Both the position numbers and the translations under genes were made by a program. Shown here one piece after another: positions 11,193-26,996 of a DNA stretch of 40,562 bases. The notes under the pieces were generated by a model, which did no database searches, had not been told where the DNA came from, and saw only the letters and a program-made list of their open reading frames with translations. Positions within the stretch are counted from its first letter, which is position 1. Each line of letters opens with the position of its first letter. Source of the stretch: Chloroflexota bacterium (lineage in GTDB: Bacteria > Chloroflexota > Dormibacteria > Dormibacterales > Dormibacteraceae); assembly GCA_005882115.1 (NCBI GenBank), contig VBEG01000035.1, forward strand, positions 1 through 40,562, written 5' to 3'.

Positions 11193-12112
11193 CACGATCC
11201 GGCCATCTGGGCAGCCGCCCGTTCCGCCGCCCCCAGCGCCGCGGCGGCATCGTGCGCGTCCGCTCCTTGGAGAGGTTCGCCGCGGACATGGCGGGCGAAG
11301 CTCTCGGCCTGCTGGCGAAGCGCGCCGAAGAACGTATCGTCGGCGCCCGGCGGCCACAGGAATTTGCATTCTTCCGCGTCCTTGGTCCCGAACACCTCGA
11401 CCTTGCATACGTCGCCAAGGGGAAACCGACGTCCCAGGGAGACAATGGCCGTCGTCCCTCCCGAAAGCTCAGCGATCGCGTGGGCGCTCTCCGGGTCGCC
11501 CGGCCATCGCTCGCCGGCGATGCCAGAGGCCACAGACGTGATGGCGCCGAATTCCTGCTGCACGAGCCACCGCGTCTGATCGAACTCATGGACACCCATG
11601 TCGACGAATATTCCGCCGCTGTGGGCGCGGAAGTTAGCCCCCGGCGGTGCGCCGTCCCATTGAAAGTTCGCCACTGCGTAGATGTCACCCAGCTCACCGC
11701 GCGCGATCCGCTCGCGCAGGCGCATCAGCGACGGCACAAAACGTCTCCAGAAACCGACCTGGAAGGGCAATCCCGCGGCATCGATCAACGCCGCCGCCTC
11801 CCGCGCTTCGGAGCCTGCGACCCCGACGGGTTTCTCGCACAGCGTGGGCATGTGAGCGTCGACCAGGCGCTTGATCGTTGTCAGGTGGAGGTCGCTCGGT
11901 ACGCAGACCAGGACCGCGTCGATCGGCGCGGTATCCAGCATATCGTCGAGGCTGCCGTACAGGGCCGAATCGGCACCTTGCAGCAAGCTGCGGGTGCTCG
12001 CCACGGGTTCGGCGATCGCGGTGACCTTGACCACCGCCGAGCCGGCGATCGCGCGCAGGTGATTGCGGCCCATCCGGCCGGCGCCGGCCAAGCCTAATCT
12101 CAGCGCAGCCAC
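11192..12112 (-). CDS. Gfo/Idh/MocA-family dehydrogenase 2
   Basis: The predicted product has 306 residues from a GTG at 12112, with GAGGG 11 bp upstream and 5 bp after the stop of the IolE-like gene. The Rossmann fold is visible as LRLGLAGAGRMGRNH. The family motif is CEKPVGV, and the segment GGIFVDMGVHEFDQTRWL gives the conserved Asp and His of inositol dehydrogenase-like enzymes. It resembles the IolG branch (GFWRRFVPSLMRLRERI is the counterpart of GFQRRFDPGY in the IolG-like gene at 15379). It probably oxidises an inositol isomer or a related polyol with NAD+. The 150 open codons upstream are a shadow of the IolE-like gene. Confidence 0.8.
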   Translation of the reverse strand: MAALRLGLAGAGRMGRNHLRAIAGSAVVKVTAIAEPVASTRSLLQGADSALYGSLDDMLDTAPIDAVLVCVPSDLHLTTIKRLVDAHMPTLCEKPVGVAGSEAREAAALIDAAGLPFQVGFWRRFVPSLMRLRERIARGELGDIYAVANFQWDGAPPGANFRAHSGGIFVDMGVHEFDQTRWLVQQEFGAITSVASGIAGERWPGDPESAHAIAELSGGTTAIVSLGRRFPLGDVCKVEVFGTKDAEECKFLWPPGADDTFFGALRQQAESFARHVRGEPLQGADAHDAAAALGAAERAAAQMAGS

Positions 12113-12117
12113 CGGCG

Positions 12118-13032
12118 TCAGAACCCTCGGGCGGCCAGATACTCGCGGTTCGCGCGCTGGTCGGCGGCGGCCCTCCCGTCGGGGTCTGGCAGCACGTCCT
12201 GTTCGACGACGATCCAGCCCGCGTACGACTTGCGGACCGCATCCAGGACGGCGTCGACGTCGAGATCCCCGTCGCCAAGCCGGCAGAACGCCTGCCGGCG
12301 CCAGATCTCGGCGACTGGCGCCGCCTCGCGGACGATGCCGTCGACCACCGATCGCCGGGCGTCCTTCAAATGGAGATGATTGATGCGCTGTCCCCATTCG
12401 CGCATCGCCCGCACGGGGTCGCCTCCTCCAAGAAGCAGGTGGCCCGTGTCGAGACAGAGCCCGATCGAGGTCAGCTCGAGGACCTTCTCGATCTCCCACG
12501 GAGCTTCGATGTGTGTGCCCGTTTCGTGATGGAACGTCGGCTCGTACCGCCGTGCGCGGCAGCATTCGACAGCCATCTCAACCCCTTCGGCGAAGCGCTT
12601 CCATGTGTCGTGGTCGAAGCCGAGCGATGGATCGTTGGCCGCCTGCCCCGGGCGCGATCGGCGCAGGTCGCTGCCGATGTCGGCGAGTGTCGGTTTCGCT
12701 CTCAGACCATTGCTCGCACCGGCAGCGTCGAAGACGTCCAGCAAAGAACCAAGCCCGCGGAGCGCCGCCGGCATCCGGGTGAGGTCGCTGAAGGGCAGCT
12801 CGAAAAAACCCCCGGAGAGCGCGAGCTTCCGCCGCCGCAGGCTCGACGCAAGCTCATCTCCGTCGCCGAGATACCCGATCGGTCCGAGATCGATCCCGGC
12901 GTACCCCGCGCCGGCGACCTCGTCGAGCACGGCATCCCCGTCTGGAACGTCGGGCAGGATGCCGACCGTCAGCTCGAAGGCACCGTAGCTCACCGGGTCG
13001 TTGGCGATGACGACCTTGCCCGCCTCTGTCAC
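12118..13032 (-). CDS. IolE-like inosose dehydratase (TIM barrel)
   Basis: This 304-residue TIM-barrel protein is of the sugar-phosphate isomerase/epimerase family. IolE removes water from scyllo-inosose to give 3D-3,5/4-trihydroxycyclohexane-1,2-dione, the substrate of IolD (18982-20862). Visible metal-site segments are FHHETGTHIEAPWEI, LCLDTGHLLLGG, HLHLKDARR and VVEQDVLPDPDG, followed by NREYLAARGF. The EQD and NREYL elements near the end are typical of inosose dehydratases. The start is a GTG at 13032 overlapping the stop of dehydrogenase 3 as GTGA, so it is translationally coupled. Another TIM-barrel isomerase activity is possible, but the IolD and IolB genes nearby support this call. 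Confidence 0.75.
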   Translation of the reverse strand: MTEAGKVVIANDPVSYGAFELTVGILPDVPDGDAVLDEVAGAGYAGIDLGPIGYLGDGDELASSLRRRKLALSGGFFELPFSDLTRMPAALRGLGSLLDVFDAAGASNGLRAKPTLADIGSDLRRSRPGQAANDPSLGFDHDTWKRFAEGVEMAVECCRARRYEPTFHHETGTHIEAPWEIEKVLELTSIGLCLDTGHLLLGGGDPVRAMREWGQRINHLHLKDARRSVVDGIVREAAPVAEIWRRQAFCRLGDGDLDVDAVLDAVRKSYAGWIVVEQDVLPDPDGRAAADQRANREYLAARGF

Positions 13033-14165
13033 GAGCGCTCCGTCGGGGCGGTCGCCATGGCAGGTTGCGAAGGATGCTCGCGCGGATGGCGCCCGCGATG
13101 GACCGCCACCACGGCCTCGCATAGCGCGATGTCATGGATGGCGTCAGCGGCGGACGTCGTCGGCTGCCTGCCGTTCGTCACGCAATCGTGGAAATGGACG
13201 AGCTCTTCCTTGAAGCTCTCCTGATAGGACGCGACCTCCTCTGTGCGCGATGCGCGAGGCGACATTTTCCGGCCGTCCTCGGAGATGAAAAGCGTGGGCA
13301 TGCTGCGGAGGAACGGGGAGGGGAATGCGAGGGTGACTCGCCGCTCCGGCGAGTAAAACGCGAACTCCATCGAGTAGCGCGCGATATCGGGCAGGTCGAC
13401 CCACGCGAGAATGCATTGCGCAGCGCCGTACTTGAAGATCGCGGTCAGCCCCGTCTCGCGTATGTCGGCGAACTCGAGCGCGTCCGGCTCACCCATCACG
13501 CCACGCATGGCGTTGAACTCGTGCACGAGGCTGTCGAGCAGGACGCTTCGGTACGCCCATCGCGACAGCGGGTCGGCGTCGCCCAGCGCGGCCGTGATCC
13601 TGGCGTCGTCATCGTCGCGAAGCGTCTGCGCGACGGATTTTGGCAAAGGCCCTCCGCGCCGAAGGTTGTAATGCTGCACGTAGGGATCGATTGGGGACTC
13701 GAGGGTCGTGATGCACACGAGGCGGAGATCGGCCAGTGTGCGCGCCTCCTCGACCAGCCGTGCATACGCGGGGTCGTAGCGCTTGTTGTAGCCGACCATC
13801 AGGACGGTGCCCGCCGCGCCGGCCGCCTCGATCATCGCGCGCCCCTCGGCGACCGAAAAACACATCGGCTTCTCAACCAGCGCATGGATTCCGGCCTGCG
13901 CGGCCGCGACCGCGATCGGCGCGTGGCTTCCCGAGGTGAGCACCAGCACCGCGTCGAGCGACCTCGTGAGCAGCTCCTGCCAGGAGGCGAACTGCTCGGG
14001 GACGCCGTACTCCCTGGCGCAGGCGGACCGCACCTCATCGGAGACGTCGCACACGGCCGCGATCTCGAAGCGGTCCGCCAGCTCGCGGAGATAGTGAAGG
14101 TGCATGACTTGAGCGATCAAGCCGCACCCGATGACCCCTACGCGCAGTCGGCCGGCCATATTCAC
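13029..14165 (-). CDS. Gfo/Idh/MocA-family dehydrogenase 3
   Basis: This 378-residue oxidoreductase has the nucleotide-binding motif LRVGVIGCGLIAQVMHLHYL, the family motif VEKPMCFS and the catalytic-face segment LLDSLVHEFNAMRG, with a His-Glu pair instead of the more common HxxD. It is more divergent than the other three dehydrogenases of the window and lacks the classical D-x-G-x-H, so its reaction is less certain. The ATG at 14165 is followed by a second ATG two codons later. The gene is first in the four-gene operon and lies 31 bp downstream of a perfect operator palindrome with a good promoter. Confidence 0.8.
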   Translation of the reverse strand: MNMAGRLRVGVIGCGLIAQVMHLHYLRELADRFEIAAVCDVSDEVRSACAREYGVPEQFASWQELLTRSLDAVLVLTSGSHAPIAVAAAQAGIHALVEKPMCFSVAEGRAMIEAAGAAGTVLMVGYNKRYDPAYARLVEEARTLADLRLVCITTLESPIDPYVQHYNLRRGGPLPKSVAQTLRDDDDARITAALGDADPLSRWAYRSVLLDSLVHEFNAMRGVMGEPDALEFADIRETGLTAIFKYGAAQCILAWVDLPDIARYSMEFAFYSPERRVTLAFPSPFLRSMPTLFISEDGRKMSPRASRTEEVASYQESFKEELVHFHDCVTNGRQPTTSAADAIHDIALCEAVVAVHRGRHPREHPSQPAMATAPTERS

Positions 14166-14248: not shown

Positions 14249-15208
14249 CTATCGCGCGGACGCCAGCACGTCGGCCGCTTCGGGGATGCCCTGCTCGGCG
14301 GCGACGAACGGGTCCTCGTGCTCGATGGCGATCGTGTGGACCCGGCTCTCGCTCTGCAAAGCGGACACGAAAGCCTTCCACCATGCCGCGTCACGGCCGC
14401 GGCCGACGACGGCAAAGTTCCAGGGCAGGGTCCGGGGATCGTGCGGCCAGCGCCTGTCGAGCACTCCGTTCACGTCGAGGTTGGGTCTCGCGAACTGCAC
14501 GTCCTTGCCGTGGCAGTGGCCCACCCGGTCGCCGATCGCCGACAGCACGGCGAGCGGGTCCATCCCCATCCAGAAGAAATGACTCGGGTCGATGTTGGCG
14601 GCGATGGAGTCGCCGAGCGCCGCGATCCGGTCGAACGTCTCCACGTTGTAGACGGCGGTGCCGGGATGAAGCTCGAGGCAGACGAGAAGCTGCGGATGCT
14701 CGCGCATCGCAAATTCCGCGACGTCCGACCAGTAAGGCTCGACCCATTCGTCCCACTGGAGCTCGTGGATCGATTCCAGGTATGGGAGCCATCCACCTCC
14801 CGCGAAGTGCGGCGTGCGGTCGCCTCGCGCGCCGGGTGGACAGCCTGCGAGCGCCACCACGCGGTCGACGCCAAGCAGCGCAGCAAGCCTGATCGCGTCG
14901 CGCAGGTCGGCGTCGTGCTTGCGGGCGATCGACTTGTCGGGATGGAGAGGGTTGCCCCAGACGTTGAGGGCGGCGACGCGCAGGCCGCGCGACGCGATCT
15001 CTGCCGCCCAGGCCTCGCGCGCGGACGCGTCGCGAAGGAGCAGAGGTGTCTCGCAATGCGTGGTCGGTGCGTAGCCGCCTGCCCCGACCTCGAGGTCGGT
15101 CACGCCCGGCGCCGCGCGTAGCAGCCATTCCATCACGTCCGTGAGCGGCCGGCTCGCGAACGGCTCGGTCACCACACCGATGCGTGGCTCGTCAGCGCCC
15201 TCAGTCAT
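14249..15208 (-). CDS. Sugar isomerase/epimerase-type TIM-barrel protein 1
   Basis: This 319-residue protein has the TIM-barrel fold of the xylose-isomerase-like/IolE-like family. Metal-binding residues are seen in LVCLELHPGT (Glu), ANIDPSHFFW (Asp, His), GHCHGKD (His) and IAIEHEDPF (Glu). It is a close paralogue of the protein encoded at 31118-32086: the segments GGGWLP, GNPLHP, DPSHFFW, HGKD and PWNFA-VGRG are shared. This paralogue type (ELHPG...DPSHFFW...EDPF) is found in sugar and inositol catabolic clusters, but the exact reaction is not known to me. The ATG at 15208 has no clear ribosome binding site. The gene is divergent from the iolG-like operon. Confidence 0.75.
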   Translation of the reverse strand: MTEGADEPRIGVVTEPFASRPLTDVMEWLLRAAPGVTDLEVGAGGYAPTTHCETPLLLRDASAREAWAAEIASRGLRVAALNVWGNPLHPDKSIARKHDADLRDAIRLAALLGVDRVVALAGCPPGARGDRTPHFAGGGWLPYLESIHELQWDEWVEPYWSDVAEFAMREHPQLLVCLELHPGTAVYNVETFDRIAALGDSIAANIDPSHFFWMGMDPLAVLSAIGDRVGHCHGKDVQFARPNLDVNGVLDRRWPHDPRTLPWNFAVVGRGRDAAWWKAFVSALQSESRVHTIAIEHEDPFVAAEQGIPEAADVLASAR

Positions 15209-15331: not shown

Positions 15332-15378
15332 GGGACACTGGCCGGATGGCCTCAAGAAGCGACGGCTGGGGGAGGACC

Positions 15379-16374
15379 GTGCACGTCGGACTCATCGGCA
15401 CCGGACGGATTGGCGCGCTGCATGCGCGAAGCCTGCGGCAGAGCCCTCTCGTGTCCACGCTGACGATCTTCGACGCTGATTCCGATCGCGGAGCGCAGGT
15501 CGCCGGCGACGTCGGCGCGGAGCTTGCGGAAAGCCCGCAAGCTCTTGTTTCTGGTGGCGTCGACGCGATCGTGATCGCGGCCGCCACCCCCGCGCACGCG
15601 GAGCTGCTGCACATGGCCGCCGAGGCTTCGGTGCCGGCGTTCTGCGAGAAACCGATAGCCCTCGAGCTCGAAGCGACCGACGATGTGATCCGGCATGTCG
15701 CGCGGGCAGGCATCTTCGTCCAGATCGGCTTTCAGCGCCGATTCGACCCGGGGTACACGGCCGCGCGTGACGCATACGCGAGCGGGGCGCTAGGCGACGT
15801 TCACGTCGTCCGGCTCGCGACGCACGATCCCGCGCCCCCGCCAGAGGCATACGTTGCCGTCTCAGGTGGTATCTGGAGGGACCTCGCGATCCACGACTTC
15901 GACATCGCCGCGTGGGTGCTGGGGAGTCCCGTCACCGAGGTTTTTGCGGATGGCAAGGCGAACGGCGAGGTGTTCGAGAGATACGGCGACGTCGACGCCG
16001 CCTGCGCGATCCTGCGCTTCGAAGGTGGCGTTCTCGGCGCGATGACCGCCACCCGCAACGACCCGCGCGGCTACGACGTCAGGATGGAGCTATTCGGCTT
16101 GCGAGACAGTATCGCCGTGGGTTGGAACGATCGGACTCCCCTCAGGTCTGTCGAGCCGTCCGTCCCGGCTCCCAGCAGGCAGGGTTATCGGGACTTCCTG
16201 GAGCGCTTTGAGCCCGCCTACCGCGCGGAGCTGCATGCGTTTTTGGGAGCGATCAAGCACGGTGGGGAGAGCCCGTGCTCGGTCGGCGATGCCCGCGCCG
16301 CGCTGGTGGTCGCGCTGGCGGCCGACCGCTCGCTGCGGGAGCATCGGCCGGTCCGGGTCGGAGAATTCGCATGA
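15379..16374 (+). CDS. iolG: Inositol 2-dehydrogenase-like (IolG) oxidoreductase
   Basis: This 331-residue Gfo/Idh/MocA enzyme most resembles myo-inositol 2-dehydrogenase, which oxidises myo-inositol to scyllo-inosose with NAD+. The Rossmann motif is HVGLIGTGRIGALHA, the family motif FCEKPIAL, and the IolG-type segments QIGFQRRFDPGY and SGGIWRDLAIHDFDIAAWVLG contain the conserved lysine/aspartate/histidine region. The GTG at 15379, just after GGGGGAGG, gives the family length. An in-frame ATG at 15346 without a ribosome binding site is the alternative. It is the first gene of the inositol-type operon and lies 48 bp after the double operator, consistent with substrate-induced control. Confidence 0.85.
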   Translation: MHVGLIGTGRIGALHARSLRQSPLVSTLTIFDADSDRGAQVAGDVGAELAESPQALVSGGVDAIVIAAATPAHAELLHMAAEASVPAFCEKPIALELEATDDVIRHVARAGIFVQIGFQRRFDPGYTAARDAYASGALGDVHVVRLATHDPAPPPEAYVAVSGGIWRDLAIHDFDIAAWVLGSPVTEVFADGKANGEVFERYGDVDAACAILRFEGGVLGAMTATRNDPRGYDVRMELFGLRDSIAVGWNDRTPLRSVEPSVPAPSRQGYRDFLERFEPAYRAELHAFLGAIKHGGESPCSVGDARAALVVALAADRSLREHRPVRVGEFA

Positions 16375-16414: not shown

Positions 16415-16459
16415 TTGGTCGAATTGACGATGATGTCGGGAGGAGCACCTCGTCCATGA
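16415..16459 (+). CDS. Possible 14-codon leader ORF before iolA
   Basis: A TTG at 16415 is preceded by AGAAGGAG and opens a reading frame of 14 residues (VELTMMSGGAPRP after the start). Its TGA overlaps the ATG of iolA as ATGA. It may couple translation of iolA or be chance. It has no recognisable domain and is too short to judge. Confidence 0.25.
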   Translation: MVELTMMSGGAPRP

Positions 16460-17889
16460 TTCGCAACCTCATCGGCGCCGAGTGGCGATCGCCGGCCGAC
16501 GGCGTTTCCTCGCTGCCGATCTTCAATCCCGCCACGGGCCAGGAGATCGAGCAGGTGCCATTGTCTCGACAGCCCGACGTCGACGCTGCGGTCAACGCGG
16601 CGGTCAGGGCATTCCCCGGCTGGTCGCGCACAGCCTTGATGGAGCGCGTGCGCCTGATGTTCAGGTTCAAGGCTCTGCTCGAGGAGCACTTCGAAGAGCT
16701 GGCTTCGATCATCACGCGCCACCACGGCAAGACGCTCGAGGAGTCGCGGGGCGAGGTGCGGCGCGGCATCGAGGTGGTCGATTTCGCGTGCGGCGCGCCG
16801 ACGCTCCTCCAGGGCCGTACCCTGCGCGACGTCTCGGGCGGCGTCGACCAGGATCTCTACCGCTACCCGGTCGGCGTCTGCGCCGGCATCCCACCCTTCA
16901 ACTTCCCGGTGATGATCCCGCTTTGGATGTTCCCGCTCTCCGTCGTCGCGGGGAACACGTTCATCCTCAAGCCTTCCGAGCGGACGCCACTCGGGGCTCA
17001 GCGGCTGGCCGAGATATTTCTCGAGGCGGGATTCCCCGATGGCGTGTTGAACGTCGTCCACGGCGCGCGAGAGGCGGTCGACGCGCTGCTGCGACATCCA
17101 AGCGTTGCCGCGCTCTCGTTTGTCGGCTCCGCGCCCGTCGCGAAGTACGTTTATCAGACAGCTGCATCGAGCGGCAAAAGGGTCCAGGCACTTGGTGGCG
17201 CCAAGAACCACATCGTCGTCATGCCCGACGCCGACCCCGAGATCGCCGTGCCGGCGATCCTCAATTCCGCGTTTGGCAACGCCGGCGAGCGATGCTTGGC
17301 GGGATCGGTCGCGGTTGCGGTCGGCCGCGCCGCCGACACGCTGCTCGATCCCCTGCGCGACGCGGCTTCGAAGCTCGTGGTCGGCCCTGGCGACCAGCCC
17401 GGCGTGCAGGTCGGTCCTCTGATCCGCGCCGACCACCGCGACAAGGTCGCGGGTTACGTCGACAAGGGTGTGGCGGAAGGCGCCGAGCTGGTGGTCGACG
17501 GGCGAGGCGAGATGAAGCGGGCGGGATTCTTTCTCGGGCCGACGATCCTGGACCGTGTCACGGCCGAGATGACAGTCGGCCACGAAGAGATCTTTGGCCC
17601 CGTGCTCTCGTTCGCGCGGGCCGCGACCCTCGACGACGCCATCGGTCAGGCGAACCAGATGGCGCTCGGCAACATGGCCACGATCTTCACGCAGTCGGGC
17701 CGCGCCGCCCGCGAGTTCCGCGAGCGCGTGGAGGCCGGGATGACCGGTATCAACGTGCCGATCGCGCAGCCGTTCGCGTTCTTCCCCTTCAGCGGCTGGA
17801 AGGGCTCGTTCTACGGCGACCTCCACGTGCATGGCACTGACGGCATCGACTTCTACACTCGTAAGAAGGTGGTTGTGACGCGGTGGTAG
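16456..17889 (+). CDS. iolA: Methylmalonate-semialdehyde dehydrogenase (IolA/MmsA)
   Basis: This 477-residue CoA-acylating aldehyde dehydrogenase converts malonate semialdehyde to acetyl-CoA at the end of inositol breakdown, or methylmalonate semialdehyde to propionyl-CoA in valine breakdown. Typical MMSDH features are GVCAGIPPFNFPVMIPLWMF (about 140-159), the NAD site LKPSERTPLG, SFVGSAPVAKYVY, GAKNHIVVMPDAD and the catalytic Cys280 in NAGERCLAG. The absence of the general-base glutamate of hydrolytic aldehyde dehydrogenases is expected in CoA-dependent enzymes. The ribosome binding site GGGAGGAG lies about 10 bp before the ATG. It overlaps the next gene by 7 bp. Placement among IolG, IolD and IolB argues for the inositol role. 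Confidence 0.92.
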   Translation: MIRNLIGAEWRSPADGVSSLPIFNPATGQEIEQVPLSRQPDVDAAVNAAVRAFPGWSRTALMERVRLMFRFKALLEEHFEELASIITRHHGKTLEESRGEVRRGIEVVDFACGAPTLLQGRTLRDVSGGVDQDLYRYPVGVCAGIPPFNFPVMIPLWMFPLSVVAGNTFILKPSERTPLGAQRLAEIFLEAGFPDGVLNVVHGAREAVDALLRHPSVAALSFVGSAPVAKYVYQTAASSGKRVQALGGAKNHIVVMPDADPEIAVPAILNSAFGNAGERCLAGSVAVAVGRAADTLLDPLRDAASKLVVGPGDQPGVQVGPLIRADHRDKVAGYVDKGVAEGAELVVDGRGEMKRAGFFLGPTILDRVTAEMTVGHEEIFGPVLSFARAATLDDAIGQANQMALGNMATIFTQSGRAAREFRERVEAGMTGINVPIAQPFAFFPFSGWKGSFYGDLHVHGTDGIDFYTRKKVVVTRW

Positions 17890-18974
17890 CGCGACGCGAG
17901 GTGACCTACAAGAGTCCTCTACATGAGATGACCGAGACGACGCCGACGCGCCTGTGGAACGACTCGGCTGACATCGATGAGCTCAAATACTCGATCGAGA
18001 ACGGCGCGGTCGGCGCGACGTGCAACCCGGTGATCGCCGTCACCATCTTGAAGAAGCACATCGCAGAGTGGCGCCCGCGCATCGAGGCGCTGCTGGGCGA
18101 GATGCCCGCCGCGACCGAGGACCAGGTCGGCTGGAAGTTGGTCGAAGAGGTGTCGATCAAGGCGGCGAAGCTGCTCGAGCCGGCGTTTGCCGCTCATGGC
18201 GGCCGCGACGGGCGGCTCTCCATCCAGACCGACCCGCGTCTGTATCGGGACGCCGCCGCGATCGTTGAGAACGCCATGGCGTTCAGCCGTCTCGCCCAGA
18301 ACATGATCGTCAAGATTCCCGCGACCAGAGCGGGGATCGTTGCGATTGAAGAGGTCACCTATCGCGGGGTCAGCATCAACGCGACCGTGTCGTTCACCCT
18401 GCCGCAGTGCATCGCGGTGGCGGAGGCGGTCGAGCGCGGGCTCAGCCGCCGCGAGGCAGAAGCCAAGGACATCGAGTCGATGGGCCCGGTCTGCACGATC
18501 ATGGTCGGCCGGCTCGACGATTGGCTCAAGGTGCTGCTGGACAAGCGCGAGATCAGCGTCGACCCCGGCTACCTCGAGTGGGCGGGCGTGGCCGTCTTCA
18601 AGAAGACGTACGGGATATTCCGCGAGCGCGGGTACCGCCTGCGACTGCTGTCCGCGGCTTTCCGCAACCACATGCACTGGAGCGAGCTGGTCGGCGCCGA
18701 CGCTGTGATCTCGCCCCCCTACGCGTGGCAGACGCGTTTCAATGCGAGCGACATCGAGGTGCGTTCCAGGATCGACGACCCGGTCAACCCGGATGTGGTC
18801 GAGCAATTGCTCGCGCATTTCCCGGACTTCCGCCGTGCGTACTCAGAGGGCGGCCTCGCCACAGGTGAGTTCGATTCCTATCCGCCGACCGTGCGCACGT
18901 TGCGGCAATTCGTCGCCGCCTGCACGGACCTCGACGGCCTGGTGCGCGACGTGATGCTGCCCGACCCCACTTAG
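17883..18974 (+). CDS. Transaldolase-family protein in an inositol cluster
   Basis: This 363-residue protein is of the transaldolase/fructose-6-phosphate aldolase superfamily. Near the N-terminus it has SPLHEMTETTPTRLWNDSAD, giving the catalytic Asp (about 27), then GATCNPVI (44-51) in place of GATTNPSL. The Schiff-base Lys144 sits in NMIVKIPATRAG and is followed by GVSINATVSFTLPQ. All catalytic elements therefore look intact. The start is taken as the GTG at 17883, overlapping iolA; a GTG at 17901 is an alternative. The operon has IolG, IolA, IolD and IolB but no IolC kinase or IolJ aldolase. This gene lies between iolA and iolD, so I infer that it cleaves the 5-dehydro-2-deoxygluconate intermediate or its phosphate. 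That assignment is not proven by sequence. Confidence 0.8.
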   Translation: MVARREVTYKSPLHEMTETTPTRLWNDSADIDELKYSIENGAVGATCNPVIAVTILKKHIAEWRPRIEALLGEMPAATEDQVGWKLVEEVSIKAAKLLEPAFAAHGGRDGRLSIQTDPRLYRDAAAIVENAMAFSRLAQNMIVKIPATRAGIVAIEEVTYRGVSINATVSFTLPQCIAVAEAVERGLSRREAEAKDIESMGPVCTIMVGRLDDWLKVLLDKREISVDPGYLEWAGVAVFKKTYGIFRERGYRLRLLSAAFRNHMHWSELVGADAVISPPYAWQTRFNASDIEVRSRIDDPVNPDVVEQLLAHFPDFRRAYSEGGLATGEFDSYPPTVRTLRQFVAACTDLDGLVRDVMLPDPT

Positions 18975-18981
18975 ACCCGAC

Positions 18982-20862
18982 GTGGAGACAACGCGCGTGA
19001 CAATGGCGCAGGCGCTGGTGCGCTTTCTCGCCGCGCAGTACGTGGAGCGCGACGGGGTGGAGCACAGGTTCATCGAGGGATGCTTCGGCATCTTCGGCCA
19101 CGGCAACCTCACCGGCGTGGGGCAGGCGCTGGCTCAGGACCCAGACCTCCTCACCTACTACCAGGCCCGCAACGAGCAGGCGATGGTGCATACCGCGGCG
19201 GGCTTCGCCCGGATGCGAAACAGGCTCGGCACGCTCGCATGCACGACCTCGATCGGACCCGGCGCGACCAACATGGTCACTGGGGCCGCGGCCGCGACGG
19301 TCAACCGGGTGCCGGTGCTGCTCCTGCCCGGTGACGTCTTCGCTTCACGCCGGCCAGATCCGGTGCTGCAGCAGCTGGAAAGCCCCTCGCGCGGTGATGT
19401 CAGCGTGAACGACTCCCTGATTGCGGTGTCGCGCTACTTCGACCGCATCCAGAGGCCGGAGCAACTCATCCCCGCGGCGCTTTCCGCGATGCGTGTCCTG
19501 ACGAGCCAGGCGGACACCGGCGCCGCCACGCTGGCGCTGCCCCAGGATGTGCAGACCGAGGCCTACGACTACCCCGACGCGTTTTTCGAGAAGCGCATCT
19601 GGCACCTCTCGCGGCCGCTGCCCGACGCATCGATCCTGGATCGCGCGGCGGGTCTGATCCGAAGCTCCAAGCAGCCGCTCATCATCGCGGGGGGCGGCGT
19701 CATCTACTCCGAGGCGACCGAAGTCCTGCGCAAGCTCGTCCGGCGCACCGGCATCCCTGTCGTCGAGACCCAGGCGGGCAAAGGCTCGTTGCCGTTCGAC
19801 CATCCGGGCGCCCTGGGCGCGATCGGCGCCACCGGCACGCCGGCCGCGAACCGGATCGCTGCCGAAGCCGACCTGGTGCTCGGTGTCGGTACCCGGTACA
19901 GCGACTTCACGACCGCCTCGCGTACGGCGTTTCAGAATCCCGAAATTCGTTTCGTCAACGTCAACATCGCCGAGCTCGACAGCCACAAGCTTGGCGGCGC
20001 GGCACTGACCGGCGACGCCCGAGCGACGCTTGAGGCGCTGGACGAGAGGCTGCAAAGATGGACCGTCAGCGACGCATATCAGAAGCAGTACGAGCAGATG
20101 CGCGCGGATTGGGACCACGAGGTATCGCGCCTCTTCGCCCTGGGTCACGCACCGCTGCCCGCGCAATCCGAGGTGATCGGCGCGGTCAACGACCTGTCCG
20201 CACCGCGAGATGTGGTCGTGTGCGCGGCCGGCTCGATGCCGGGTGACCTTCACAAGCTCTGGCGCACGCGAGACGCCAAGGGCTATCACGTCGAGTACGG
20301 CTACTCGACGATGGGATACGAGATCGCGGGCGGGCTCGGAGTCAAGCTGGCCGATCCGTCCCGCGAGGTTTACGTGATGGTCGGCGACGGCTCCTACCTG
20401 ATGATGTCGCAGGAGATCGTGACCTCGATCCAGGAGCGCGCCAAGCTGACCATCGTGCTGGTCGACAACGAGGGCTTCGCTTCCATCGGAGGCCTTTCGC
20501 GGTCCAAAGGTATGGCGGGCTTCGGGACGCGCTACCGCTACCGGTCCGATGGCTCATTGGGCGACGACGAAAAACACGACGACGCCGAGCGGCTTCCGGT
20601 GGACCTCGCGCGGAACGCCGAAGGCCTGGGTGCGCACGTGTTCCGGACGCACAACGTCGAAGAGCTTCGGGACGCCATCAACGCCGCCAAGAACGTGGAC
20701 AGCACAGTGGTCATCTACATCCCGACGGATCGTTACGAGAGCGTGCCCAGCTACGACAGCTGGTGGGAGGTGCCGGTCGCCGAGGTCGCGGATTCGAAAG
20801 AGGTCCAGAAGGCGCGCGAGGAGCACGAGCGCGGGTTGACCAGGCGGCGCTGGCACGTATGA
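18982..20862 (+). CDS. iolD: Trihydroxycyclohexane-1,2-dione hydrolase (IolD)
   Basis: This 626-residue thiamine-diphosphate enzyme opens the ring of 3D-3,5/4-trihydroxycyclohexane-1,2-dione to 5-deoxy-D-glucuronate. The N-terminal domain has MAQALVRFLAAQYVERDG and the TPP-activating glutamate at about 65 in YQARNEQAMVHTAAGFA, followed by TTSIGPGATNMVTGA. A central Rossmann-like domain is present (RSSKQPLIIAGGGVIYS). The TPP/Mg motif starts at about residue 468 (GDGSYLMMSQEIVTSIQERA) and continues VLVDNEGFASIGGLSRS, a stretch very characteristic of IolD rather than acetolactate synthase. The GTG at 18982 is 7 bp after the preceding stop; a GTG at 18997 is possible. The gene ends in an ATGA overlap with iolB. 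Confidence 0.93.
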   Translation: METTRVTMAQALVRFLAAQYVERDGVEHRFIEGCFGIFGHGNLTGVGQALAQDPDLLTYYQARNEQAMVHTAAGFARMRNRLGTLACTTSIGPGATNMVTGAAAATVNRVPVLLLPGDVFASRRPDPVLQQLESPSRGDVSVNDSLIAVSRYFDRIQRPEQLIPAALSAMRVLTSQADTGAATLALPQDVQTEAYDYPDAFFEKRIWHLSRPLPDASILDRAAGLIRSSKQPLIIAGGGVIYSEATEVLRKLVRRTGIPVVETQAGKGSLPFDHPGALGAIGATGTPAANRIAAEADLVLGVGTRYSDFTTASRTAFQNPEIRFVNVNIAELDSHKLGGAALTGDARATLEALDERLQRWTVSDAYQKQYEQMRADWDHEVSRLFALGHAPLPAQSEVIGAVNDLSAPRDVVVCAAGSMPGDLHKLWRTRDAKGYHVEYGYSTMGYEIAGGLGVKLADPSREVYVMVGDGSYLMMSQEIVTSIQERAKLTIVLVDNEGFASIGGLSRSKGMAGFGTRYRYRSDGSLGDDEKHDDAERLPVDLARNAEGLGAHVFRTHNVEELRDAINAAKNVDSTVVIYIPTDRYESVPSYDSWWEVPVAEVADSKEVQKAREEHERGLTRRRWHV

Positions 20863-21641
20863 GCGGGCTCGTGATTCGCGATTCAGGAGGCGTGGTCGAG
20901 GTCACGCCCGAGTCGGCCGCCTGGTCATACGTCGGCTTCGAGGTGTTCCGGCTCGATGCGGGCAAGCAGCTGGAACGGCCCACTGCAGGACGCGAGGTGT
21001 GCGTGGTCATGCTGTCTGGCCAGGCGGACTTCGCGGTGGGCTCGCATCGTTGGACGGAAGTCGGTTCGCGCGACAGTGTCTTCGAGGGGCCACCGGACGC
21101 GGTCTACGCGCCGCCGGGAGAGCAGATCGCGATCTCGGCATCCAGCGATTGCGAGGTTGCTCTTTGCTGGGCGCCGGCCTCCGATGGCGCTGAGCCGGCC
21201 CTGATCAAAGCGGCGGAGATCAAGCCGTTCAAGCGCGGCTCCGGGCGGACTGAACGCACGATCCACAACATCCTCATGGAGGACCGGCCGGCGGAGTCGC
21301 TGCTCGTCACCGAGGTCTTGACCCCGGCGGGCAACTGGTCGAGCTACCCACCGCACAAGCACGACACCGACGACCCGCCGCGCGAGACCTACCTCGAGGA
21401 GACGTACTACCACCGGCTCGCGCGACCCGAGGGCTTCGCCGTGCAGCTCGTCTACACCGATGACCGCTCCCTGGACGAAGCGATCCAGGTCCGCGACGGC
21501 GACGTCGTCCTGGTCCCGCGTGGCTACCACCCCGTGGCCGCAGGTCCGGGTTACGACCTCTACTATCTAAACGTGATGGCCGGTCCCACCCGCCGCTGGC
21601 TGGTCACTACCGACGCCGACCATCGCTGGCAACTCGACTGA
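20859..21641 (+). CDS. iolB: 5-deoxy-glucuronate isomerase (IolB)
   Basis: This 260-residue bicupin converts 5-deoxy-D-glucuronate to 5-dehydro-2-deoxy-D-gluconate. The metal-binding cupin motif is clear: NWSSYPPHKHDTDDPP followed by ETYLEETYYHRLARPEGF, supplying His, His, Glu and His ligands. FAVQLVYTDDRSLDEAIQVRDGDVVLVPRGYHPVAAGPGYDLYYLNVMAG follows and matches the IolB C-terminal region. The ATG at 20859 overlaps the iolD stop as ATGA; open codons further upstream lie inside iolD. The protein is slightly shorter than the Bacillus enzyme (about 270) but appears complete. The next gene begins 22 bp later, with an operator site in between. Confidence 0.92.
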   Translation: MSGLVIRDSGGVVEVTPESAAWSYVGFEVFRLDAGKQLERPTAGREVCVVMLSGQADFAVGSHRWTEVGSRDSVFEGPPDAVYAPPGEQIAISASSDCEVALCWAPASDGAEPALIKAAEIKPFKRGSGRTERTIHNILMEDRPAESLLVTEVLTPAGNWSSYPPHKHDTDDPPRETYLEETYYHRLARPEGFAVQLVYTDDRSLDEAIQVRDGDVVLVPRGYHPVAAGPGYDLYYLNVMAGPTRRWLVTTDADHRWQLD

Positions 21642-21663: not shown

Positions 21664-22821
21664 GTGAGCGGGACGGTCCGGGCGGCCGTGATGACAGCCC
21701 CGGGACACCTTGAAGTCAGGCGATTCCCGCTCCCCGAACCCGCGCCAGGCGCCGTCGTGATGAAGGTCACCTACTCCGGCATCTGCGGCACGGACAAGCA
21801 CACCTACCGCGGTGAGTCGAAGCAGTACGCAGGCACCGATCACGAGCGCAACATCATCTATCCGCTGATCTGTGGCCATGAGAACGTGGGAGTGATCGAG
21901 GCCATCGGAGGTGGCGACTCCATCCCGGATAGCGAAGGACGCCCGCTGCGCGCCGGCGACCGGATCGTTCCCGCCGCGAACGTCCCATGCGGTCACTGCG
22001 TCTTCTGCCTCAACGACTACCCGTACTACTTCTGTGAGAACTTGCAGGACTACGGCAACAGCCTGCATGCGACCAACCCGCCGCACCTTTTCGGCGGCTG
22101 GGCGGAATACATGTACCTGCTTCCAGGAACACCGCTCTTTCGTGTGCCCGACGGTCTGCCGGACGAGGTCGCAGCCCTGACCGAGGTGATGGCCGTAACG
22201 CATGGGTTCGATCGCGCCCGCATGCTGACGGCGGGATGGGGAGGAAGCGCATTCGGCGAGTCGGTGGCCATCGTCGGAATCGGCCCGCTTGGCTTCTGCC
22301 ACCTGGTCAAGGCGCGGCTTATGGGTTGCGGCAAGCTGATCGCGATCGACCGGCTCGACTCGCGTCTCGAGCTGGCAAGAAAATTCGGCGCCACGCTGAC
22401 CATCAACGCCGCCAAAACTGACGAGAAGGAGCGCCTCGCGCTCGTGCGCGAGCACACCCACACCGGGCCCGACATCGTCGTCGACTGCACCGGTTTCGCC
22501 CAATCGTTCCCAGAGTGCCTGCATCTTGTGCGCTACGGCGGCACCGTCGTCGAGGCGGGGACGTTCGTGGACATGGGCCCCGTCGGTGTCAATCCCAACG
22601 CTGACATCTGCACCAAGAACGTCAGCGTGATCGGCGTCGGCGGCGAGACAGCGACCTCCTACGTCCCGTCGATGAACCTACTCGCCCGGAACCTCGACCG
22701 CCTTCCGCTGACAGAGATCGTCACGCACCGGATGCCTCTCGAGCGCGCGACCGAAGCCATGGAGCTATCGCAGCGGGACGGGACGATGAAGGTCCTGATG
22801 GACCCGGCCATGAAGCCGTGA
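21664..22821 (+). CDS. Zinc-dependent medium-chain alcohol dehydrogenase
   Basis: This 385-residue member of the zinc MDR superfamily (sorbitol/threonine dehydrogenase-like) has the catalytic zinc region SGICGTDKHTYRGE (about residues 39-52) and GHENVGVIE. The structural-zinc cysteines are in PCGHCVFCLNDYPYYFCEN, and the NAD site is VAIVGIGPLGFCHLVKARLMGCGKLIAIDR. An insert after GTDKHTYRGESKQYAGTDHERNIIYPL separates the zinc ligands, as in some polyol dehydrogenases. The expected substrate is a polyol or an inositol/sugar-acid hydroxyl. The GTG at 21664 gives the typical N-terminus (VRAAVMTAPGHLEVRRFPLP). It overlaps lacI by 4 bp and is preceded by an operator site. Confidence 0.85.
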   Translation: MSGTVRAAVMTAPGHLEVRRFPLPEPAPGAVVMKVTYSGICGTDKHTYRGESKQYAGTDHERNIIYPLICGHENVGVIEAIGGGDSIPDSEGRPLRAGDRIVPAANVPCGHCVFCLNDYPYYFCENLQDYGNSLHATNPPHLFGGWAEYMYLLPGTPLFRVPDGLPDEVAALTEVMAVTHGFDRARMLTAGWGGSAFGESVAIVGIGPLGFCHLVKARLMGCGKLIAIDRLDSRLELARKFGATLTINAAKTDEKERLALVREHTHTGPDIVVDCTGFAQSFPECLHLVRYGGTVVEAGTFVDMGPVGVNPNADICTKNVSVIGVGGETATSYVPSMNLLARNLDRLPLTEIVTHRMPLERATEAMELSQRDGTMKVLMDPAMKP

Positions 22822-23864
22822 TCGAATCCCCCTCTGCGACGCGAAGGCACCCCACCATCCTCGATGTCGCCTCCCACGCTGGCGTTTCGAAATCGACCGT
22901 CTCCAACGTCGTGCGTGGGCTGCCCGGAGTGTCGGAGGCGACCCGAGGGCGAGTCCGCCTTGCGATCCAGGAGCTGGGCTACCGACCCAATGTGCTCGCC
23001 CGCCAGCTCGTGCAGCAGCGAACGAGCATCCTCGGCGTCGTCGTCGGCGACCTCGCCAACCCCTTCTTCGCCGAGATGGCGAAATCGGTCGAGCGGCACG
23101 CCGCTGCCCGCGGCTACACCGCGATGTTCTGCAACACAGAGGGCGACAGCCAGAGCGAGCTCGCCGGAGTCGAGACGCTTCTCGAACACAGGGTGGCGGG
23201 CATCGTCTTTCTCGCCTTCTCCGGCGACTCCCGGACGATGCGGGAGACGCTTCAGCACCAGATTCCGGCGGTCTTCGTCAGCTGCGGCGCGGAGTGGGGA
23301 GACGTGGTCTCGGTCGATGACGAGGTCGGAGGCCGCATGGGCACGGCGCATCTCGTCGACGCCGGGCACCGGCGCATCGCGTATCTCTTTATCCCGGAGC
23401 TCGAAGACCAGTCCGACCGCGCGCGCTGGGACGGCTACTGCGAGGCTTTGAAAGCGGCCGGCCTCGGGCCGCCGGTCAGGATCAGCTGGTCGCCGCCCGC
23501 CGAGCACGCGCTCGTCGACGGCGTCGACCGCCCCCTGATCGAAGTCTTCACCGGTCCCGACCGCGCCACCGGCGTGTTCGCGTCCAATGATGTGGCCGCG
23601 ATAGCGCTCCAGGAGTTCGCGGACCGCGTTGACCTGCGCGTCCCAGGCGATATCTCGATCGTCGGCTTCGACGACGTGCCGATGGCGGGCCTCGCCCGGA
23701 TCGCGCTGACCACGATCGCCCAGCCGCGGGACGAGCTCGCGCGGCTGGGCATAGCGACCATCGCCGACCGGATCGAGCGCAAGCTCAAGGGGCCACCGAC
23801 ACGCACTCTTGTCGACGTCACGCTGGTCGCCCGCCGGTCGACCGCGCCCCTTCGCCAGGCCTAG
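22818..23864 (+). CDS. LacI-family transcriptional regulator
   Basis: This 348-residue regulator has an N-terminal HTH (about residues 12-35: PTILDVASHAGVSKSTVSNVV) followed by RGLPGVSEATRGRVRLAIQELGYRPNVLARQL. The NVLARQL hinge helix normally inserts a leucine into a central CG step of the operator. The rest is a periplasmic-binding-like sensor domain (SILGVVVGDLANPFFAEM, PGDISIVGFDDVPMAGLARIALTTIAQPRDELARLG). It would repress in the absence of a sugar-like inducer. The GTG start overlaps the dehydrogenase stop as GTGA. Eight palindromes with a central CG surround it at six loci, making it the best candidate for their binding protein and suggesting autoregulation. The inducer is unknown; an inositol-pathway intermediate is likely. 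Confidence 0.93.
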   Translation: MIESPSATRRHPTILDVASHAGVSKSTVSNVVRGLPGVSEATRGRVRLAIQELGYRPNVLARQLVQQRTSILGVVVGDLANPFFAEMAKSVERHAAARGYTAMFCNTEGDSQSELAGVETLLEHRVAGIVFLAFSGDSRTMRETLQHQIPAVFVSCGAEWGDVVSVDDEVGGRMGTAHLVDAGHRRIAYLFIPELEDQSDRARWDGYCEALKAAGLGPPVRISWSPPAEHALVDGVDRPLIEVFTGPDRATGVFASNDVAAIALQEFADRVDLRVPGDISIVGFDDVPMAGLARIALTTIAQPRDELARLGIATIADRIERKLKGPPTRTLVDVTLVARRSTAPLRQA

Positions 23865-23948: not shown

Positions 23949-23997
23949 GAGGCGGGACGACGCGAAGTTTTCCGCCAGATCTGCGGAGGAGTTGAGC

Positions 23998-24891
23998 TTG
24001 GCTGTCGCGGCCGGTTTGGGCCCGCGGTTGGACCGCGAGCGATTCCAGTGGTCGAGCCTTGCGATGCTCGCCCCGGCGCTGGCGCTGCTCGGCGTGCTGT
24101 TCATCTTCCCGGTCCTGTACTCCGGCTACCTCGGCTTCACCGACCTGGCGCTGGTGGGCTCGCGCTCGCGCGACTATCAGTTCACGGGCCTCGACAACGT
24201 GACCCGGATGCTCAGCGACTACGTCTTCATCAAATCGTCGTGGCTGACGATCATCTTCGTCGTCGGCTCGGCGATCGTCGGCCAGACGGTGCTCGGCATG
24301 GCGCTGGCCATCCTCCTGCGCAACGCGCTGGTATCCGTCCGGGCCGTGATCGGGTCGATCGTCATCGTCGCTTGGGTCCTGCCGGAGATCACGGTCGCCC
24401 TGGTCTGGTATGCGTTCTCCCAAGCCGGCGGCACGCTCTCGATCCTGCTGGGTCACACGGACACGAACTTCCTGGTCGCCGTGCCGATGCTGATCGTCTC
24501 GCTGGCCAACCTGTGGCGCAACGTCGCCTTTTCGATGCTCGTGTTCTCGGCCGGCCTCCGCAACCTGCCGACGGAGGTCCTCGAGGCGGCCGAGGTCGAG
24601 GGCGCGTCCGCCTGGCGCCGCTATCGAATGGTGGTCCTGCCCCTGCTCAAGCCGACGATCGTGACGAACCTGCTGCTGGTCACGATCCTCAACCTGTCTG
24701 AGTTCACGCTCATCTACGCGATGACGCAGGGAGGGCCCGGCATCGAGACCATGACGCTTCCGCTGTACGTCTACCAGGAGGCGTTCGTGTTCCACCAGCT
24801 CGGATACGGGACCGCCATCTCGCTCGTGCTGGTGCTGATCGGCGCGCTGTTCTCCCTCCTGTTCGTCCGCGCTTCGAGGAGCCAGGTATGA
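23998..24891 (+). CDS. Carbohydrate ABC transporter permease (MalF/UgpA type)
   Basis: This inner-membrane permease of 297 residues has six predicted helices (for example LAMLAPALALLGVLFIFPVLYSGYLGF at the start) and the EAA loop VLEAAEVEGASAWRRYRMVVLPLLKPTI, which contacts the ATPase. It is of the carbohydrate uptake type 1 family. The start is chosen as the TTG at 23998 because GGAGGAG (23985-23991) lies 6 bp upstream; a TTG at 23992 is too close to it. It overlaps the second permease by ATGA. The tandem operators directly upstream place uptake under the same control as the inositol genes. Confidence 0.92.
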   Translation: MAVAAGLGPRLDRERFQWSSLAMLAPALALLGVLFIFPVLYSGYLGFTDLALVGSRSRDYQFTGLDNVTRMLSDYVFIKSSWLTIIFVVGSAIVGQTVLGMALAILLRNALVSVRAVIGSIVIVAWVLPEITVALVWYAFSQAGGTLSILLGHTDTNFLVAVPMLIVSLANLWRNVAFSMLVFSAGLRNLPTEVLEAAEVEGASAWRRYRMVVLPLLKPTIVTNLLLVTILNLSEFTLIYAMTQGGPGIETMTLPLYVYQEAFVFHQLGYGTAISLVLVLIGALFSLLFVRASRSQV

Positions 24892-25760
24892 GCGCGGTGG
24901 AGGCACGCCGGGCGGGTGCGGAAAAGCTGATCGTCGTCCCGTACAGCCGGGTTTCGCCGGCGGCGGTGGCTACCAACATGATCCTGATCCTGCTCGGCTC
25001 CTTCTTCCTGCTTCCGATGCTCTGGATGGTGTTCGCGTCCGTCGATTCGAACCCCGACTGGGCGATCAAGCTGCCGACGCCGACGCTGGCGAACTTTACG
25101 GACGTGCTCGGCCGCGCCGACGCGATCAGCTCTTTCCGCAGCAGCCTGATCCTGGCCGGCACGACGACCGTCGTCACGACCGTGCTCGCCGTGCTTGCCG
25201 CGTATCCGCTCTCGCGCATGCACATCCCGTTCAAGCGCGCGTTCATGCTGGCGATCCTCTTCGCGTCGGGCCTTCCGGTTTCGATGCTGATCGTGCCCGT
25301 CTACCAGATGTACGTGTACTTCGGCTGGCTCGACTCGCTCTACACAACGGCCCTATTCCTTGCCGCGAGCTCGCTCCCGTTTGCGATCTGGCTGATGAAG
25401 AACTTCATCGACGCGGTGCCCGCGGAGCTCGAACAAGCCGCCGCGATCGACGGCGCGAGCACGGCTCGCATCCTGCGTGAGCTCGTGCTGCCGTTGACGC
25501 TGCCCGGCATCGCGGTGACCGCGATCTACACGTTCATCAACGCCTGGGGAGCTTTCATCATCCCGTTCGTGCTGACGTACAGCCCCGACAATCAACCCGG
25601 CCCGGTCGAGATCTACAACTTCATGGGTTCGCACGGACTGTTCAAGTTCGGCGACCTGGCCGTCTTCTCGCTGTTGTTCTCGGTGCCCGTGATCGTCCTG
25701 TATCTGTTCATGTCGCGCTATTTCAGCGGCGCGTTCAACTTCGGCGGCGCGGTCAAGTAG
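24888..25760 (+). CDS. Carbohydrate ABC transporter permease (MalG/UgpE type)
   Basis: This second permease subunit of 290 residues has six helices and the EAA loop AELEQAAAIDGASTARILRELVLPLTLPGI (about residues 178-207). A late helix pair ends with a short basic C-terminus (YLFMSRYFSGAFNFGGAVK). The N-terminal helix follows a 30-residue cytoplasmic start. The ATG overlaps the previous stop. It should form the membrane channel together with the protein encoded at 23998-24891, fed by the lipoprotein at 27010. The next gene follows without any gap. Confidence 0.93.
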   Translation: MSAVEARRAGAEKLIVVPYSRVSPAAVATNMILILLGSFFLLPMLWMVFASVDSNPDWAIKLPTPTLANFTDVLGRADAISSFRSSLILAGTTTVVTTVLAVLAAYPLSRMHIPFKRAFMLAILFASGLPVSMLIVPVYQMYVYFGWLDSLYTTALFLAASSLPFAIWLMKNFIDAVPAELEQAAAIDGASTARILRELVLPLTLPGIAVTAIYTFINAWGAFIIPFVLTYSPDNQPGPVEIYNFMGSHGLFKFGDLAVFSLLFSVPVIVLYLFMSRYFSGAFNFGGAVK

Positions 25761-26996
25761 ATGCTCAGCGAAGTGCGCTTCGAGGGCGTGCACAAGATCT
25801 TCGGCACCGAGACGGCCGTCGAGGATCTCAACCTCCGGGTGAACGCAGGCGAGTTCCTCGTCCTGGTCGGTCCGTCCGGTTGCGGCAAGACGACCACGCT
25901 GCGCATGCTGGCGGGCCTCGAGCGCCCCTCGTACGGGCGAATCCTGATCGGCGACAAGCTCGTGAACAACGTCTCACCGCGGTTTCGTGACGTGGCGATG
26001 GTCTTCCAGAGCTACGCCCTCTACCCGCACATGAACGTGTACGACAACCTGGCGTTCGGCATGCGCGCGCGGGGGGCGGCCGGCAGCGTCATCGCGCAGC
26101 GCGTCAAGGAGACCGCCGAGGTGCTCGGGCTTGCCCAGCTGATGAAACGCCGTCCCTCAGAGCTCTCCGGCGGCCAGCGGCAGCGCGTCGCGCTTGGCCG
26201 CGCGCTGATCCGCCAACCGCAGGTCTTCCTCATGGACGAGCCACTCTCCAACCTCGACGCAGGCCTTCGCGTGCAGATGCGAGCGGAGCTGAGCCGGCTG
26301 CATGAGCGCTTTCGGGTCACGACCCTGTACGTGACACACGACCAGGTCGAGGCGATGACCATGGGCGACCGGATCGCGGTCATGAACAGCGGCCGGCTGC
26401 AGCAGGTCGACGCCCCCGAGACCCTGTACGACAACCCCGCCAACATCTTTGTCGCCGGGTTCATCGGGTCGCCGCGTATGAACTTCGTCCGGGGCAGCCT
26501 GACGACGACGCGGGGCGTGGCGGCCGTCGAGTTTCTCGGCGTCACGACCCCGCTCAGCTCGCGCGCGAAGCTGACCGCGGAGGCCGCCGACGGTGCGGTG
26601 ACTGTGGGGCTGAGACCAGAAGACCTCATGTGGCGGCGTGCCGCACCACCCGAGAGCACGCTGACTCTCAGCGCCGAGGTGGACGTCGTCGAGCCGATGG
26701 GCCACGAGGCCTACGTGACCGCAGTGTGCGCAGGCGAAACGGTCACGTCTCGGTTTCCACCGCGGTCCGGCGTGCGGACGCGAGACCGCATCGAGCTCGC
26801 ATTGAATCCTGCGCGGCTTCATCTCTTCGACGCCCGGTCGGGGAACACCATCCTCCAACGGCCAGTGGCCGGCGGAGCCGAGCTTCCGAGATCCGTGGGG
26901 GAGGCGCGGGTCGACGAATCGGAGGAAGGGCGATCGGAGCGTCAACGCGAACCTCACACGCGGAGTGCGCAATCGAGAGCAGAAGAAATTTCATGA
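25761..26996 (+). CDS. Carbohydrate ABC transporter ATPase (MalK/UgpC/MsmX type)
   Basis: This 411-residue ATPase powers the permease pair. Walker A is GPSGCGKTT (37-45), the Q-loop MVFQSYALYPHMNVYDNLAFGM, the signature LSGGQRQRVALGRAL (about 135), Walker B VFLMDEPLSNLD and the H-loop TLYVTHDQVEAM. After about residue 235 it has the extra OB/TOBE domain of the MalK group (VGLRPEDLMW; AEVDVVEPMGHEAYV). The C-terminal 50 residues after FDARSG are unusually long and charged, with no recognised fold. The ATG directly follows the stop of the second permease. Unlike many Gram-positive sugar importers, this cluster encodes its own ATPase. Confidence 0.93.
   Translation: MLSEVRFEGVHKIFGTETAVEDLNLRVNAGEFLVLVGPSGCGKTTTLRMLAGLERPSYGRILIGDKLVNNVSPRFRDVAMVFQSYALYPHMNVYDNLAFGMRARGAAGSVIAQRVKETAEVLGLAQLMKRRPSELSGGQRQRVALGRALIRQPQVFLMDEPLSNLDAGLRVQMRAELSRLHERFRVTTLYVTHDQVEAMTMGDRIAVMNSGRLQQVDAPETLYDNPANIFVAGFIGSPRMNFVRGSLTTTRGVAAVEFLGVTTPLSSRAKLTAEAADGAVTVGLRPEDLMWRRAAPPESTLTLSAEVDVVEPMGHEAYVTAVCAGETVTSRFPPRSGVRTRDRIELALNPARLHLFDARSGNTILQRPVAGGAELPRSVGEARVDESEEGRSERQREPHTRSAQSRAEEIS

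Follow-up and report, generated by a model that had tools for sequence, protein, structure and literature searches.

The classical pathway of myo-inositol breakdown, that of Bacillus subtilis, comprises IolG-E-D-B-C-J-A. The lower part of inositol breakdown is variable and partly unexplained (PMC9007349; PMC6741124): Gaiella occulta and Solirubrobacter soli use inositol without iolJ (PMC6741124), and both IolJ and the IolC-DUF2090 fusion aldolase are lacking in 8 of 26 inositol users (PMC9007349). In a pathway for a different substrate, the 6-deoxy-6-sulfofructose transaldolase SqvA/SftT (sulfo-TAL) passes a three-carbon unit to glyceraldehyde-3-phosphate (PMC9594981). Here we describe an inositol (iol) operon in a 40,562-nucleotide stretch of DNA (the window; positions 1 to 40,562 of contig VBEG01000035.1, assembly GCA_005882115.1) from a Chloroflexota bacterium of the class Dormibacteria, in which a gene for a transaldolase-family protein, hereafter TAL, lies between iolA and iolD. 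Very probably TAL does the work of both the IolC kinase and the subsequent aldolase by cleaving unphosphorylated 5-dehydro-2-deoxygluconate.

The genes for IolA, TAL, IolD and IolB are packed as one operon on the forward strand, with an overlap of 7 nt between IolA and TAL, a gap of 7 nt between TAL and IolD and an overlap of 4 nt between IolD and IolB (Table 1). IolD, IolB and IolA pass the curated cut-offs for a myo-inositol catabolic operon; the IolG-like protein falls short, as does the IolE-like protein of the divergent operon. The initial annotation had read this same arrangement, with a Schiff-base lysine in the transaldolase-family protein and neither IolC nor IolJ in the window, and every element of it was seen again, so that the presence of TAL in the iol operon is confirmed. 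Its suggestion that IolC and IolJ be sought in the whole genome, a metagenome-assembled genome (MAG) of 3.36 Mb in 147 contigs with 96.5% completeness, led to the same outcome: the genome-wide search returned no IolC equivalog and no match either to PF01116 (class II aldolase, IolJ) or to the DUF2090 aldolase (PF09863). The seven PfkB proteins of the genome are six sugar-kinase-like proteins and the HMP kinase ThiD, and none reaches the 300-bit cut-off for IolC (TIGR04382); nor does the genome hold an IolC at the threshold of the class-wide search described below. The best of them as IolC, with 139.8 bits, scores higher as 2-keto-3-deoxygluconate (KDG) kinase, and its gene adjoins a KDPG-aldolase-like gene. 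Inspection of the seven PfkB and of four DeoC/LacD proteins for a hidden IolC or IolJ yielded none that fits.

In both classes surveyed, absence of IolC recurs wherever TAL accompanies IolD. Among 110 genomes of the window's class, 34 carry IolD; 18 of these have TAL only, 14 IolC only (one of them a partial IolC hit below the cut-off), none both and two neither. The same holds in a second, acidobacterial class, that of genome G110 (locus L058), where 66 of 399 genomes carry IolD, divided into 24 with TAL only, 18 with IolC only, none with both and 24 with neither. With genomes counted as independent, Fisher p values for this exclusion are 8.6e-8 in the window's class and 8.6e-5 in the acidobacterial class, in which TAL is also strongly associated with IolD (p = 1.2e-14). 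Because genomes are not independent, the tree of IolD (73 rows, with reading frames chosen by alignment) weighs more than these values: it requires at least 14 changes between the TAL and IolC states, at least seven of them forced by well-supported branches, and TAL and IolC were therefore exchanged repeatedly.

The 24 acidobacterial genomes with IolD and with neither IolC nor TAL also show no Cgl0159-like protein in the regions fetched (L140-L154, L156, L157). One group among these regions has consecutive genes for an IolE-like protein, a sodium:solute symporter, IolD and a DUF5060 protein. These genomes either follow a third route or use IolD in another role.

What TAL replaces can be read from the IolC loci. 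In seven of eight fetched IolC regions the iol cluster contains, or has nearby, a gene for a Cgl0159-like protein (PF22649). This protein probably acts as class I aldolase in the inositol pathway, and is missing from TAL loci with the sole exception of the IolD contig of genome G055. IolC and the Cgl0159-like protein thus form a two-gene module for which TAL is exchanged, and TAL seems to stand in for the kinase and aldolase together. Examples of such genes in or near Dormibacteria-type and acidobacterial IolC clusters lie at L262:7577-8584, L264:4470-5393 and L265:3504-4412. For inositol users that have neither IolJ nor DUF2090, the Cgl0159-like protein is a good candidate to supply the missing 5-dehydro-2-deoxyphosphogluconate aldolase, a role for which no paper in the open-access library names it. 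An iolC gene is reported for Gaiella, whose gap may thus be closed by a Cgl0159-like aldolase and not by TAL.

Conserved neighbourhoods of TAL, which the initial annotation had proposed to look for, are kept in many genomes. IolD, IolB or IolA is in reach in 49 of the 75 loci with a called TAL gene (IolD in 39, IolB in 39, IolA in 19). TAL is directly followed by IolB, with no IolD in reach, in L061, L064, L071, L079 and L084; two IolB proteins from such loci narrowly missed the cut-off of 205 bits, with scores of 182 and 189. An IolA above its cut-off accompanies TAL without IolD in five further loci, adjoining it in L057, L078, L159 and L168 and nearby in L100. As 5-dehydro-2-deoxygluconate is the product of IolB and malonate semialdehyde the substrate of IolA, the neighbours point to what TAL is likely to take up and to form. 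The five TAL-IolB loci belong to family f2, from genomes that yielded no IolD, and the pair may form a two-gene module that handles 5-deoxyglucuronate of other origin.

TAL itself is a member of the TAL_FSA superfamily (PF00923; 131.6 bits over a cut-off of 27). It stays below the cut-offs of the classical transaldolase equivalogs (TIGR00876, 73.1 against 233.75 bits; TIGR00874, 56.6 against 396.2; NF002881, 114.6 against 367) and of the fructose-6-phosphate aldolase (FSA) equivalog TIGR00875 (41.3 bits, cut-off 245.95). Its AlphaFold2 model, built from 56 sequences (pLDDT 95.2, pTM 0.92) and replacing an earlier one from 16 sequences (pLDDT 77.8), has transaldolases as its nearest solved structures, the best being 3r5e with a TM-score of 0.81. 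In an alignment with 125 homologues, conservation being counted wherever a column was filled, the Schiff-base lysine K144 aligns with K132 of TalB and K85 of FsaA and is kept in 125 of 125, and Asp27, Asn48, Thr168, R210 and R261 are invariant. So is Gln115, which stands at the place of the catalytic Glu of classical transaldolases (TalB E96), not kept in TAL, and is the equivalent of Gln59 of FsaA. Solved structures exist for TalB E96Q and E96Q/F178Y, both from work reported to show that this residue helps to decide between transaldolase and aldolase activity. R210 and R261 correspond to R181 and R228 of TalB, which hold the acceptor phosphate (PMC3962226). Met207, found in all homologues, stands at F178 of TalB, a known aldolase switch, where the exchange F178Y brings a 70-fold gain of aldolase activity (PMC3962226). 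Setting Met207 against Tyr131 of FsaA goes by way of TalB F178 and assumes equivalence, as FsaA is gapped there in the alignment.

The chemistry of the presumed substrate also fits. Numbered from its keto end, 5-dehydro-2-deoxygluconate starts with a hydroxymethyl ketone, its diol (C3/C4) has the D-threo configuration seen in fructose, and its carboxylate sits near the position of the fructose phosphate; retro-aldol cleavage yields a dihydroxyacetone (DHA) unit and malonate semialdehyde. From this and from the genomic evidence we infer the substrate, reaction and acceptor as follows. TAL would take over two steps of inositol breakdown, that of the IolC kinase and that of the following aldolase. 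K144 would form a Schiff base with C5 of the unphosphorylated product of IolB, the C3-C4 bond would be cleaved, and malonate semialdehyde would leave for IolA. The enzyme-bound DHA unit would then pass to glyceraldehyde-3-phosphate, giving fructose-6-phosphate, or else to erythrose-4-phosphate.

Replacement of IolC and the aldolase with transfer of the DHA unit to an acceptor has, in our estimate, an even chance of being the full account, and we lean to it over release because there is no Tyr at the switch position, the arginines are kept and no link to a DHA kinase is seen. Possible, and less probable, is that TAL acts as a plain aldolase, splitting the unphosphorylated substrate into malonate semialdehyde and free DHA, with a DHA kinase or glycerol kinase acting next. 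In its favour, Gln115 is invariant where transaldolases have Glu and FsaA has Gln59, a position that the work on TalB E96Q and E96Q/F178Y reportedly ties to the choice between the two activities; two DHA kinase genes are present in the window's own genome; and in the acidobacterial loci L113 and L116 TAL has an FGGY kinase and a GlpD-like gene in its vicinity. However, the second determinant, Tyr in TalB F178Y and in FsaA (Tyr131, the presumed equivalent), is Met207 throughout the homologues. DHA kinase (DhaK) is no more frequent with TAL than with IolC, being present in 11 of 18 TAL genomes and 10 of 13 IolC genomes of the window's class (absent from 7 of the former), while outside that class 14 of 20 TAL genomes lack it and 6 have it, a distribution that gives no support to an obligatory DHA kinase. 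Kinases are rare beside TAL, and none was found to be linked to its loci as a rule.

That TAL replaces the aldolase only, and cleaves a phosphorylated intermediate made by another PfkB-type kinase encoded elsewhere, appears improbable. The six sugar-kinase-like PfkB proteins of the genome would provide candidates, but the best of them scores and is placed as described above, none qualifies as IolC, and of about 117 TAL loci only 2 have a PfkB protein in the neighbourhood. Moreover, the classical intermediate carries its phosphate on the very DHA unit that transaldolases and FSA use unphosphorylated.

Slightly less credible still is a role as pentose-phosphate transaldolase, or on another sugar of the same regulon, which would make the place of TAL in the operon irrelevant to the missing steps. 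Family membership agrees with such a role, and some homologues do lie, without iolD, beside other sugar genes, short-chain dehydrogenases/reductases (SDRs) or a galactonate-type major facilitator superfamily transporter. Against it, another contig of the genome carries a second transaldolase-family gene, an open frame of 988 aa with 268 bits to PF00923 against 132 for TAL, so that TAL need not be the housekeeping transaldolase, a function for which we rejected it; the length of this second protein would suit a Tal-Pgi fusion. Mutual exclusion with IolC in two classes, and the company of IolB or IolA even where iolD is lacking, also speak against it. Least likely of all, and by our estimate very unlikely, is that IolC and an aldolase are encoded in DNA missing from the assembly. 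The MAG is indeed in 147 contigs, and in G055 (75% complete), which has TAL, the contig with IolD also carries a Cgl0159-like gene, so that this genome may be of the IolC type with its IolC unassembled; but all 18 TAL genomes of the window's class, at 70-96.5% completeness, and 24 of 24 in the second class lack IolC.

Several points weigh against or limit the proposal that TAL cleaves the unphosphorylated intermediate and transfers the DHA unit. Gln115 in place of the catalytic Glu points to release of DHA, not transfer. The absence of a Cgl0159-like protein (PF22649), as judged by phmmer, holds for the window only and not for the rest of its genome. Certain TAL loci lack iol genes within 10 kb, and IolD is missing from part of the TAL genomes, so the TAL family may have further substrates. 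Finally, the activity and reaction of TAL are predictions from genomes. The kinase-free branch in place of IolC and IolJ that the initial annotation had put forward nevertheless gains in standing: the genome search, the neighbourhoods and the exclusion counts support it by comparative genomics in two classes, with the enzyme activity as a prediction and with either of the two chemistries that the annotation had offered, release or transfer of the three-carbon unit, as possible.

Relatives of TAL also occur in other settings. Homologues with 67-68% identity in L158, L159 and L160 lie beside an SDR, a threonine-dehydrogenase-like alcohol dehydrogenase and an aldo/keto reductase, with no IolD, and in L159 IolA is also adjacent; these loci perhaps serve the breakdown of 2-deoxygluconate or a related acid. 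A distant second subfamily (31-33% identity) is found outside iol clusters in a small number of genomes from this class (L179:8570-9895, L181:8425-9798), in L181 near proteins that read as DHA-kinase-like. In the window's own genome, a DHA-kinase protein as long as a DhaK-DhaL fusion is encoded near genes for an RpiB-like protein, a DeoC/LacD-type aldolase, an SDR and a TIM barrel (L183:5829-12338), a cluster that may belong to another sugar pathway.

Table 1. Genes of the iol operon, the divergent operon and their surroundings in the window (bit scores with curated cut-offs).
Feature	Position	Strand	Evidence
IolA / methylmalonate-semialdehyde dehydrogenase (CoA-acylating)	16456..17889	+	TIGR01722 603.9 bits, cut-off 448.5
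TAL, transaldolase-family protein, 363 aa, GTG start	17883..18974	+	PF00923 131.6 bits, cut-off 27
IolD, trihydroxycyclohexane-1,2-dione acylhydrolase	18982..20862	+	TIGR04377 920.8 bits, cut-off 715
IolB, 5-deoxy-glucuronate isomerase	20859..21641	+	TIGR04378 339.5 bits, cut-off 205
IolG-like Gfo/Idh/MocA dehydrogenase, upstream of IolA	15346..16374	+	TIGR04380 298.7 bits, below cut-off of 355
Zn-dependent dehydrogenase, IolM/HpnZ-like	21664..22821	+	PF00107, PF08240; NF041097 (IolM) 142.8 bits, below cut-off of 450
LacI-type regulator	22818..23864	+	Open reading frame and reading of sequence
Sugar ABC transporter: two permease-like genes and MsmX-type ATPase	23992..26996	+	Open reading frames and reading of sequence
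IolE-like TIM barrel, candidate inosose dehydratase, divergent operon	12118..13122	-	PF01261; TIGR04379 131.3 bits, below cut-off of 290
Second xylose-isomerase-like TIM barrel, divergent operon	14249..15208	-	PF01261 67 bits
Gfo/Idh/MocA dehydrogenase, divergent operon	13029..14165	-	PF01408
Gfo/Idh/MocA dehydrogenase, divergent operon	11192..12223 (start provisional)	-	PF01408; TIGR04380 173.9 bits, below cut-off of 355

Taken as a whole, we regard it as highly probable that a kinase-free, transaldolase-dependent branch of inositol breakdown exists among uncultured Dormibacteria-type and acidobacterial soil bacteria, that it has been exchanged repeatedly with IolC and its aldolase, and that it is the inositol counterpart of the sulfo-TAL pathway. 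No report of a transaldolase bypass in inositol breakdown was found in the open-access library searched, subscription papers and preprints lying outside the search. If true, the proposal would add a new kinase-free branch to the textbook pathway and a second case in nature of a transaldolase that has become a catabolic cleavage enzyme; it would show by what route inositol could serve several abundant soil lineages that are uncultured, and inositol users could be overlooked where IolC is the basis for calling them.

Compared with the classical pathway of B. subtilis, the locus shares IolD, IolB and IolA above their cut-offs together with IolG-like and IolE-like proteins, and differs in having TAL in the place of IolC and IolJ. 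In the IolC-DUF2090 fusion (PMC9007349), IolJ is likewise replaced by a lysine Schiff-base barrel; unlike here, the kinase and the phosphorylated intermediate are retained, and DUF2090 is absent from the window's genome. TAL resembles the Corynebacterium glutamicum transaldolase (3r5e) and Escherichia coli TalB in fold, Schiff-base lysine and Asn/Thr site residues, and TalB also in the phosphate-binding arginines, but shares only about 20% identity with them and has Gln for the catalytic Glu and Met for TalB F178. With E. coli FsaA it has in common the lysine, Asp, Asn, Thr and the equivalent of Gln59, and differs in length (363 against 220 aa), in Met at the presumed equivalent of Tyr131 and in its score below the TIGR00875 cut-off. 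The nearest mechanistic precedent is the sulfo-TAL pathway (PMC9594981), similar by analogy only: there, too, a PF00923 enzyme acts on an unphosphorylated ketose with a distal acid group, although substrate and operon are different and the solved BmSF-TAL, at about 220 aa, is of FSA size whereas TAL has 363 aa.
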